Positions 24,778 to 26,934 of a stretch of 64,000 nt of DNA are shown in pieces. Within the stretch, counting starts at the first letter, position 1. Every line of letters begins with the position of its first letter. The stretch is from Thermanaerovibrio velox DSM 12556 (GTDB lineage: Bacteria; Synergistota; Synergistia; Synergistales; Synergistaceae): assembly GCF_000237825.1 (NCBI RefSeq), contig NZ_CM001377.1, positions 1,240,001 through 1,304,000 of the forward strand. Direction: 5' to 3'. The translations under genes were made by a program, and so were the position numbers. The notes under the pieces were generated by a model. The model ran no database searches and was not told where the DNA came from. It was given only the letters and a program-made list of their open reading frames with translations.

Positions 24778-25638
24778 TTAGCGCTCTTTAACCTGCATAG
24801 CAAGTATCCCCTTGTCCATCGCGCTCCGCCTAGCGGAGTCCGCCAGCTCAACGGACCTTAAAGCCGCAGCGGAAACCGCCCTCATGAAGGCGGTCCTCAC
24901 CCTACCCTCCTCCAACTCGTAAAGCCCCTCTATGGTAACCCCTCCGGGGGTTATCACCTGATCCCTAAGCTCCGCCGGATGACCACCGGACTCCAACAGC
25001 AGGGACGAGGCCCCTATGGCGGTGTTGGCCGCCGCCCTAAGCGCCAGGTCCCTGGGAAGCCCTGCCTTGAGGGCTCCAAGTATCATGGCCTCCAAAACCG
25101 TGTACATGTACGCAGGGCCGCTGCCAGACATGGCAGTTAGCACGTCCAGGTACTGTTCGTCCACCTTCTCAAAGGCCCCCATGGATCTGAAGACGCTTCT
25201 CACCACTGCCTCCTCCTCTTCCCCAACGGCTAAACCGTTGGAGTAGACCGTATACCCCCGCCTTATCCGGCATGCGGTGTTTGTCATGGCCCTCACCACC
25301 GGGAAGGGACAGACCGCCTCCATCATCTGGATGGTCATGGCCGCCGCCAGCGATACCACCACCTTAGGAGCAGCCTCCGGAGCTACCTCAGATATCTGCG
25401 ACATGACCTCCAGCACCTGATATGGCTTCACCGCCAATATCACCACATCAGCCCATGACGCAGCCTCCTGGTTAGCCCCTCCCTCCTCCACCCCAGCCTC
25501 TAAAAGCTCCGTGGGGATGCCACCTCTCCTACGGGTCACCATCACCTGGAAATGAGGCCTGAGCGCCATGGCCACCGCACTGCCTATGGTTCCAGCCCCT
25601 ATTATGGCCACCCTGTTAACTTCAACCGCCCTGTCCAT
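24778..25638 (-). CDS. proC: Pyrroline-5-carboxylate reductase
   Basis: This 286-residue enzyme reduces 1-pyrroline-5-carboxylate to proline with NAD(P)H. The N-terminal Rossmann loop is I-I-G-A-G-T-I-G-S-A-V-A (about 10-21). V-I-L-A-V-K-P-Y-Q-V and M-T-N-T-A-C-R-I-R-R-G follow. The C-terminal helical dimer domain carries A-M-S-G-S-G-P-A-Y-M-Y and Q-V-I-T-P-G-G-V-T-I-E-G-L. ATG at 25638 is preceded by GGGAGGTG. A leader of about 200 bases with its own promoter and an intrinsic terminator ends directly before this ribosome site (see the leader entries), so expression probably depends on terminator read-through. Confidence 0.93.
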   Translation of the reverse strand: MDRAVEVNRVAIIGAGTIGSAVAMALRPHFQVMVTRRRGGIPTELLEAGVEEGGANQEAASWADVVILAVKPYQVLEVMSQISEVAPEAAPKVVVSLAAAMTIQMMEAVCPFPVVRAMTNTACRIRRGYTVYSNGLAVGEEEEAVVRSVFRSMGAFEKVDEQYLDVLTAMSGSGPAYMYTVLEAMILGALKAGLPRDLALRAAANTAIGASSLLLESGGHPAELRDQVITPGGVTIEGLYELEEGRVRTAFMRAVSAAALRSVELADSARRSAMDKGILAMQVKER

Positions 25639-25654
25639 ACTCAACACCTCCCAT

Positions 25655-25690
25655 GAAAATAAAACAGGGCCGCCCCCGAAGGGACGGCCC
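25655..25690 (-). terminator. Attenuator-like terminator directly before proC
   Basis: On the minus strand GGGCCGTCCC pairs with GGGCGGCCC (25690-25667) around a short loop, and TGTTTTATTTTC follows (25666-25655). The T tract ends about five bases before the proC ribosome site, and about 17 bases before its ATG. No minus-strand gene lies upstream within this region, so the terminator acts on the proC leader itself. Confidence 0.75.
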
Positions 25691-25732
25691 AAACCCTAAT
25701 CTCCCGGTAAACGCCTTAAGATCTCACCAGCT

Positions 25733-25840
25733 TCAAATCCTAAGGCCGAGGACGGGCAAAGGGCATCCTTCCGGGGAACCCCAAGGGCTCCCCGGGCTAG
25801 GGATCATCTGAAACCCAGACCAGTCAAACGCCGCCTTCAA
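25733..25840 (-). CDS. Candidate proline-rich leader peptide of proC
   Basis: A 35-codon frame in the proC leader starts at TTG 25840, eight bases after GGGGAGGGG, and ends at TGA 25735-25733. Its middle reads 'MIPSPGSPWGSPEGCPLP', with six Pro codons in 17. The frame is also open from an ATG at 25864 and could start at the internal ATG at 25807. Several Pro codons lie within a strong hairpin (CCGGGGA pairing with TCCCCGG), and a further 10-bp stem follows before the terminator. A Pro-rich leader before a proline biosynthesis gene is what translational attenuation needs. C-rich DNA makes CCN codons common by chance, so this stays a hypothesis. Confidence 0.4.
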   Translation of the reverse strand: MKAAFDWSGFQMIPSPGSPWGSPEGCPLPVLGLRI

Positions 25841-25871
25841 GATCCCAACCCCTCCCCGCAACATACGGGGG

Positions 25872-25900
25872 ATTGTAAAACAAGTCGAACCAAGTGTCAA
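25872..25900 (-). promoter_or_regulatory. Strong promoter of the proC leader
   Basis: On the minus strand a consensus TTGACA (25900-25895) is followed by exactly 17 bases and TACAAT (25877-25872). Transcription would start near 25865, about 225 bases before the proC ATG. Confidence 0.75.
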
Positions 25901-25973
25901 ACCAATAATTTAATCAGATGGCTCCAGATCAATCATCATCACTGAGGATTAAAATTTTCATTTCCCAGCTTTA

Positions 25974-26002
25974 TTGACATATCCTAAGATGAGAATCAAA
26001 AT
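25974..26002 (+). promoter_or_regulatory. Promoter of cysK
   Basis: TTGACA at 25974-25979 is followed by 17 bases and CAAAAT (25997-26002). The TTG start of the cysteine synthase gene is at 26038. I see no S-box or T-box in this short leader. Confidence 0.5.
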
Positions 26003-26037
26003 CCTTAACGTCAATTACTTCGAGGGAGGAATAAAAT

Positions 26038-26934
26038 TTGAGAGAAGGAATCCTTGCCCACGTGGGCAACACCCCCATGGTACTCCTCAAGAACTCGTCA
26101 CCCAATCCAAACGTAAAGATATGGGCCAAGCTTGAGATGCTCAACCCCAGCGGGTCGTTGAAGGACCGGGTTGCCCTGTCGATCGTCGAGGGGGCGGAAA
26201 AGCGCGGCGAACTCAGGCCTGGCATGACCTTGGTGGAGGCCACCAGCGGAAACACCGGCATAGCTCTCGGCATGGTGGCGGCGGTCAAGGGATACAAACT
26301 TAAGATCTTCATGTCCGAGGCCAAGACCATAGAGAGGCGGAAGATCCTTAAGTACTGGGGAGCTGACTTGGTGCTCACCACGAAGGACGACCCGGACAGC
26401 CACATACTCTCCGCCATGGCATACGCCAAGGAGAACCCGGACTGCTTCTACGCGAACCAGAACGAGAACTTCGATAACGTGGAAGCCCACAGGACCGGCA
26501 CCGGTGTTGAGATCATAGAGCAGCTCAACGGCCAGGTGGACGCTTTTGTGGCTGGGTTCGGCACCGGCGGCTGCCTCATGGGGGTGGCCAAGGCCTTCCA
26601 CGACAAGGGCGTCCCAGCCAAGGTCTACGGGGTGGAGCCAATGCCCAACACCGGTGGCATCGATGGGCTCAAACACCGCTCAGAGTCCTACCAGCCCCTC
26701 ATCGCAGACAGGGGGCTCCTGGCAGGGATAATAGACGTCAGCCGGGATGAGGCCATAGCGGGAGCCAAGGCCATATCCGCCAAAGAGGGCATAATGGCCG
26801 GCATGTCCTCCGGAGCCACCCTTCACGGGGCCCAACAGCTGGCCCTAAAGATGGACCGGGGCAACATCGTGGTCATCTTCGGCGACCGGGGAGAGCGGTA
26901 CTTCAGCACCCCCATCTTTGACTACCAGGGGTAG
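26038..26934 (+). CDS. cysK: Cysteine synthase family protein (O-acetylserine sulfhydrylase type)
   Basis: This 298-residue fold-type II PLP enzyme has N-P-S-G-S-L-K-D-R-V-A (PLP Lys, about residue 42) and E-A-T-S-G-N-T-G-I-A-L (substrate loop). It also has V-A-G-F-G-T-G-G-C-L-M-G (phosphate loop) and G-M-S-S-G-A-T near the C terminus. It probably makes cysteine from O-acetylserine and sulfide. N-T-G-G-I-D replaces the usual P-G-P-H-K-I-Q-G-I-G region, so a related substrate such as O-phosphoserine is possible. The start is TTG at 26038 after GGGAGGA. It is divergent from proC. Confidence 0.85.
   Translation: MREGILAHVGNTPMVLLKNSSPNPNVKIWAKLEMLNPSGSLKDRVALSIVEGAEKRGELRPGMTLVEATSGNTGIALGMVAAVKGYKLKIFMSEAKTIERRKILKYWGADLVLTTKDDPDSHILSAMAYAKENPDCFYANQNENFDNVEAHRTGTGVEIIEQLNGQVDAFVAGFGTGGCLMGVAKAFHDKGVPAKVYGVEPMPNTGGIDGLKHRSESYQPLIADRGLLAGIIDVSRDEAIAGAKAISAKEGIMAGMSSGATLHGAQQLALKMDRGNIVVIFGDRGERYFSTPIFDYQG

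Follow-up and report, generated by a model that had tools for sequence, protein, structure and literature searches.

The gene proC of Thermanaerovibrio velox, encoding pyrroline-5-carboxylate reductase, is preceded by a leader that, judging from sequence comparison and computed folding, very probably controls the gene as a ribosome-mediated transcription attenuator sensing charged tRNA-Pro. This reading as a proline attenuator is strongly supported by the anatomy of the leader, the conservation of this anatomy and the fit of the folding energies, from which we infer translation of the leader frame, ribosome stalling, read-through and a response to proline. Positions refer to the window, i.e. 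the whole stretch of 64,000 nucleotides that was analysed, and the features of the leader are as follows.

25900-25872, minus strand: leader promoter, with TTGACA at 25900-25895, a spacer of 17 nt and TACAAT at 25877-25872 (11 of 12 consensus matches)
near 25865, minus strand: predicted RNA start, from the promoter position
25857-25849, minus strand: Shine-Dalgarno of the leader frame, GGGGAGGGG, from sequence
25840-25733, minus strand: leader peptide frame of 35 codons, TTG start, TGA stop at 25735-25733
25795-25771, minus strand: first hairpin, 11 bp, spanning Pro codons 16-23, from folding
25795-25771 with outer pairs 25858-25848/25757-25747, minus strand: predicted protector fold, which would hold the antiterminator 5' strand
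25746-25713, minus strand: second hairpin, 12 bp, containing the stop codon; predicted central part of the antiterminator structure
25771-25747, minus strand: predicted antiterminator 5' strand, pairing with 25706-25678 when the ribosome is on Pro codon 16
25690-25667, minus strand: stem of the intrinsic terminator, 10 bp, -21.7 kcal/mol, arms GGGCCGTCCC / GGGGCGGCCC
25666-25657, minus strand: T-rich tail of the terminator, TGTTTTATTTT, ending about 4 nt ahead of the proC ribosome site
25652-25647, minus strand: proC ribosome site GGGAGG, from sequence
24778-25638, minus strand: proC, pyrroline-5-carboxylate reductase, ATG at 25638 (TIGR00112, PF14748, PF03807)

The consensus promoter, the frame of 35 codons with six Pro codons behind a Shine-Dalgarno sequence, the two stable hairpins and the intrinsic terminator just ahead of the proC ribosome site had all been pointed out in a preliminary description of this DNA, and all were confirmed. 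The leader peptide reads LKAAFDWSGFQMIPSPGSPWGSPEGCPLPVLGLRI, with Pro at codons 14, 16, 19, 23, 27 and 29, and the region 25706-25678 includes most of the terminator 5' arm. The frame is open also from an ATG at 25864, but this codon coincides with where the RNA is expected to begin; the TTG that is left as start codon counts against the attenuator reading. The identity of ProC follows from a profile search (TIGR00112 at 231 bits, over the cut-off), and the fold of the leader was found to be more stable than 200 of 200 dinucleotide shuffles (z -3.5). Having a promoter and a terminator of its own, and a terminated form of about 200 nt that would be abundant, the element could also be taken for a stand-alone small RNA acting in trans, proC being read by run-through or from another promoter. 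Such a role is very unlikely, given that the element lies on the same strand and directly ahead of proC in 12 genomes, that in T. velox the proC ribosome site follows the terminator after a few bases and no promoter-like site between the two was listed by a promoter scan, and that the conserved features are those of translation.

The layout is that of an attenuator, namely a frame with a ribosome site before the gene, conserved Pro codons, and a terminator between frame and gene. In the proposed switch, RNA polymerase would start near 25865 and a ribosome would meanwhile translate the Pro-rich frame of 35 codons. When charged tRNA-Pro is ample, the ribosome would reach the stop codon (25735-25733) and cover part of the antiterminator; the terminator (25690-25667) would then fold and transcription would end after about 200 nt. 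When charged tRNA-Pro is scarce, the ribosome would stall at the first Pro codons (14-19), the protector hairpin would open, and 25771-25747 would become available for pairing with 25706-25678, a region that takes in the terminator 5' arm; with the antiterminator formed, polymerase would read on into proC. Without a ribosome, the protector fold would form and the terminator would win again.

This scheme was examined by folding with a ribosome in place, each codon in turn being put in the A site, the RNA being hidden to 12 nt from the first base of this codon and the remainder being folded. In most leaders, the computed upstream pairing of the terminator 5' arm peaks with the ribosome at the Pro cluster or just past it, and declines toward the stop. 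For T. velox, the computed probability of the terminator with the ribosome on Pro codon 16 is 0.03, the stalled state having 25771-25747 paired with 25706-25678; in the computed ribosome-free state, the protector fold (25858-25747) holds the antiterminator 5' strand. It was thus borne out by computation that, as proposed in the preliminary description, stalling at Pro codons alters the folding toward read-through, the choice between antiterminator and terminator being exclusive and the antiterminator forming on a stall at the control codons and not at the stop. At equilibrium, a terminator probability <0.5 is reached only with the A site at or within 1-2 codons of the Pro cluster in five leaders (T. 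velox, G002, T. acidaminovorans, G059 and G050), and in the three Thermanaerovibrio leaders the computed loss of the terminator, dependent on the Pro cluster, holds at 60 °C too. The full-length equilibrium fold keeps the terminator even with a stalled ribosome in seven of the 12 leaders; since the terminator is the equilibrium winner there, the antiterminator of these seven must win kinetically, by forming first. Compared with dinucleotide shuffles, the difference between stall and stop goes in the expected direction with a shuffle fraction ≤0.12 in 10 of 11 leaders (mean z -1.56 per leader); differences of single leaders are modest, most fractions being 0.03-0.12, and a pooled figure would overstate significance because close relatives within a genus are not independent. 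The least clear state of the model is the ribosome-free one, in which the terminator arm of T. velox and its congeners is predicted to pair upstream too, before its 3' arm exists.

The conservation of the leader was investigated by searching proC in 183 Synergistales genomes and then inspecting the DNA upstream of the matches. Leaders of like anatomy stand ahead of proC in 12 genomes belonging to four GTDB families (f1, f6, f7 and f10), and two further leaders of the proC type, beyond these 12, lie at contig edges (G180 and G177). The preliminary description had looked to relatives for a Pro-rich frame kept open with mostly synonymous changes and for a retained terminator, and both were encountered, the frame in the 12 genomes and four families and the terminator in every leader-bearing relative. 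Frames comprise 28-35 codons with 3-8 Pro codons and are preceded in all leaders by a ribosome site resembling a Shine-Dalgarno sequence; terminators start 22-42 nt past the stop codon and have stems of -21.5 to -29.8 kcal/mol with T-rich tails. In the 11 leaders found first, the first Pro codon lies 19-22 codons ahead of the stop, and the start and the N-terminal length vary. In four close pairs, Pro codons were kept in 20 of 20 cases, some with synonymous changes, versus 65 of 105 for other residues, and the peptide residues around the Pro codons vary between leaders. Promoter-like hexamers with the same 17-nt spacer occur ahead of the other leaders too, and where the promoter can be assigned clearly the RNA measures 178-198 nt from its start through the terminator. 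G002 keeps the Shine-Dalgarno GGGAGGGGG, with the spacing seen in T. velox. The leader peptides of the relatives are LTLCSWSAFQAIPSPGSPWGSPGGCPLPVLGLEV (G002), MLSRIGMASFVNPLPSPGVLCPPDRFPFAPSAQP (T. acidaminovorans), MAQHLRRLPSPCLPRPQAIFARGWSVLS (G006), MILNRRFDMALPCSPRPVSKHPGGGRPCPGA (G062), MSLKRRFDMALPCYPCPASRFPGVSRPCPGA (G059), MARTFIINTNPSPCPSVVPGRCVFREGLVLS (G045), MAYVTRNTNPCPCPTVMPGRCIFRGGLVLS (G054), MIDILKRTARPNPCVPPRTRRNISREGLVMS (G182), VRNTFIRISRSNPCVPPCTGKNCRRKGLVVS (G179), MQVSVRRTTRPNPCIPPRSRKSLSREGTVLS (G176) and MAGCFRTVHTINPCVPPVVGHRSARSGPPVS (G050).

The strong structure of the T. velox leader and the conserved terminator would also suit a riboswitch or a protein-binding leader in which the short frame is incidental. 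The pattern of conservation makes this highly improbable, since conservation extends to the frame, the Shine-Dalgarno sequence, the stop position and the Pro codons but not to most of the leader RNA sequence, and the RNA elements are placed with respect to the stop codon in the way needed for an attenuator. Moreover, neither a riboswitch nor a T-box was matched when window and leader were compared with Rfam at gathering and permissive thresholds. A match to sbrA stayed below threshold and was set aside as a mere terminator look-alike.

DNA similarity search (BLAST) across the relatives returned congeners only, the leaders of other families not being alignable. A covariance model built from eight leaders and run over the order Synergistales recovered its input and, without prior knowledge of it, the twelfth proC leader, that of G050 in a fourth family (f6), and also matched the contig-edge leaders of G180 and G177; the Thermanaerovibrio leaders, too different in sequence, were not matched. 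Covariation in the consensus is clear for the terminator; the antiterminator differs in position between subgroups, and too few sequences were in register for it. Together with the 12 natural variants, the covariance model shows which features of the leader matter. In families f3, f4 and f8, proC lies behind an RNA methyltransferase-like gene with no room for a leader, and no proC leader was seen by eye in families f2, f5, f9 and part of f6. Ten proC loci without a leader were run against Rfam and gave no match, so that a T-box does not take the place of the leader at these loci. A scan of named genomes found no such proC leader in the records of Acetomicrobium, most WOR-3, Thermoplasma and Bathyarchaeota, and two weak detector calls (L062 and L068) were dismissed as being without the conserved layout. 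Most genomes of family f1, to which T. velox belongs, gave no proC match at E ≤ 1e-20, which suggests either that proline synthesis has often been lost or that the enzyme is divergent. In G180:C95 (L159 1-80, minus strand), the terminator of the proC-type leader is closely followed by one end of a group II intron (RF02001), a placement resembling that of introns inserting behind terminators; proC itself is off the contig.

Whether a Pro-rich frame might arise by chance in C-rich DNA ahead of an unrelated terminator was considered as well. Loose scans do yield other Pro-rich frames before terminator-like hairpins, mostly within genes: in a background sample of about 400 kb (17 stretches of 20 kb and the window) with 344 heuristic genes, a loose detector asking for a Shine-Dalgarno sequence, a Pro-rich frame and a terminator gave two other Pro hits. 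Enrichment of Pro by frame was discarded as a test, being not discriminating in C-rich DNA; over 11 leaders the in-frame count of Pro is 55 versus 61 in another frame, the stretch being C-rich in two frames. Taken from one genome alone, the T. velox leader exceeds chance only weakly. It is the comparison of sequences across genomes that settles the matter, and the recurrence of the leader ahead of proC, at a conserved spacing and across 12 genomes from four families, refutes chance, leaving it a vanishingly small probability. Cys codons also recur beside Pro codons (NPC, SPC and LPC; 20 of 347 residues versus 12.6 ± 3.2 in shuffles) and may reflect an RNA pairing constraint or be part of the sensing.

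Neither proA nor proB was found over the cut-off in any of the 11 leader genomes searched. Ornithine aminotransferase was over the cut-off in 8 of these 11 genomes versus none of the six others in the same search, which comprised five genomes without a leader found and G050, later shown to bear one. Pyrroline-5-carboxylate most likely comes from ornithine via this aminotransferase, and in T. acidaminovorans arginine is broken down through the deiminase pathway, a source of ornithine (PMC3035242). Given the absence of proA and proB, the presence of ornithine aminotransferase and the arginine deiminase route, ProC is probably the sole enzyme dedicated to proline, with ornithine as its source, and would be a sensible single control point, so that one switch at proC would set proline synthesis. 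No Pro leader was found ahead of the ornithine aminotransferase gene in eight genomes. In G045, this gene (G045:C2:25902-27086) lies on a separate contig of 31.9 kb, probably a plasmid.

The same RNA switch might respond to Pro content itself, through slow peptide bonds, the level of elongation factor P, or another drug or stress signal, and not to a lack of charged tRNA-Pro. Pro-rich stretches slow ribosomes, elongation factor P acts on Pro codons in leaders and genes of E. coli and Salmonella (PMC5021804, PMC6460261), and the leaders of G050 and T. acidaminovorans, like some of those in f10, contain PP pairs; however, many leaders, that of T. velox included, have separated Pro codons (PxP) and neither PP nor PPP, the residues around the Pro codons vary, unlike those of arrest peptides, and the gene behind the leader catalyzes the last step of proline synthesis, pointing to proline itself as the signal. 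A response to Pro content is for these reasons considered unlikely, and sensing of charged tRNA-Pro is preferred.

The weaker matches of the covariance model turned out to be leaders of the same plan with other codons, either Tyr-rich or Phe/aromatic. Tyr-rich leaders (e.g. MGKALFNNNYYYYFYAYPRTYDASGFLVFSTK), with peptide stretches such as YYYYFYAY, YYYAYSY and YLYVYAPALY, are followed by a terminator and stand ahead of a small protein of about 30 residues, behind which lies a sodium:solute symporter (PF00474) where examined (G030 and G062). They occur at loci L154, L150-L153 and L155-L158 (G030, G160, G163, G011, G015 and others) and at L146 and L147 of the f7 genomes G062 and G059, where the Tyr-type leader lies directly behind proC. 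A leader rich in Phe, Tyr and Trp, MGKALLNKNFYFYWFFTFPRSFDASGCLAFFAK, with a terminator, stands ahead of aroE, the gene of shikimate dehydrogenase (L161/L163, G030:C1:3031693-3031883). The computed folding profiles of Tyr and Phe leaders reach their maximum at the Tyr or Phe codons or a little beyond, in the manner of the Pro leaders. The Tyr-rich leaders are accordingly candidate tyrosine attenuators, the symporter behind them may carry tyrosine, and the leader before aroE is a candidate aromatic amino-acid attenuator. It is conceivable, if somewhat doubtful, that all belong to one homologous Synergistales family re-aimed by swaps of control codons (Pro for proC, Tyr for the small protein and symporter, Phe/Tyr for aroE) with the 3' half, i.e. 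the stop-proximal antiterminator strand and the terminator, being kept. That the model also turned up Tyr and Phe leaders suggests widespread translation-coupled attenuation in the phylum, and the substrate of a transporter could be predicted from leader codons, as with tyrosine for the uncharacterised symporter here. On the plus strand of the window, the DNA adjoining the proC leader (25900-26040) holds a divergent promoter-like TTGACA-17-CAAAAT (25974-26002) for a cysteine-synthase-like gene (26038-26934); a block around TTTATTGACATATCC in this DNA is shared with G002 and, for the most part, with T. acidaminovorans, and is perhaps an operator.

Leader-peptide attenuation has long been known from amino-acid operons of Proteobacteria (trp, his, leu, ilv, thr and phe). 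The proC leader shares with amino-acid operon attenuators, described also in Actinobacteria (PMC1262725), a short frame enriched in codons for the end-product amino acid, the protector, antiterminator and terminator structures, and a terminator before the first structural gene; it differs in that proline would be sensed, the gene is proC, Pro codons are mostly arranged as PxP and not as a run, and the phylum is Synergistota. Proline is unmentioned in the Actinobacteria survey (PMC1262725), and the open literature, to which the search was confined, yielded neither a leader-peptide attenuator of a proline biosynthetic gene nor attenuation in Synergistetes, so that the mechanism is known and the proline/proC case and the phylum are provisionally new as far as this literature shows. 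Candidate ribosome-mediated attenuators with conserved codons have been proposed elsewhere, namely uORFC-8-2 (cysS, Rhodobacterales) and uORFC-13-1 (aroF, Acholeplasma), for other amino acids, genes and taxa (PMC8632094). The tRNA-Pro T-box of Bacillus subtilis proBA and proI likewise senses tRNA-Pro charging and controls full-length transcription of a pyrroline-5-carboxylate reductase gene (PMC9245794), but there the RNA binds tRNA directly with no leader peptide, whereas the T. velox leader lacks a T-box match. Closest in codon content are the Salmonella leaders mgtP (mgtCBR) and mgtL (mgtA), Pro-codon frames in which proline limitation raises downstream transcription, the Pro codons having been shown necessary in mgtP (PMC3641672). 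These leaders control Mg2+ transport and virulence genes, whereas the gene behind the present leader is proC and not one of Mg2+ transport. Known Pro leaders thus serve Mg2+ transport, and the proC case would extend leader-peptide control to proline synthesis and attenuation to a deep phylum of amino-acid-fermenting anaerobes.
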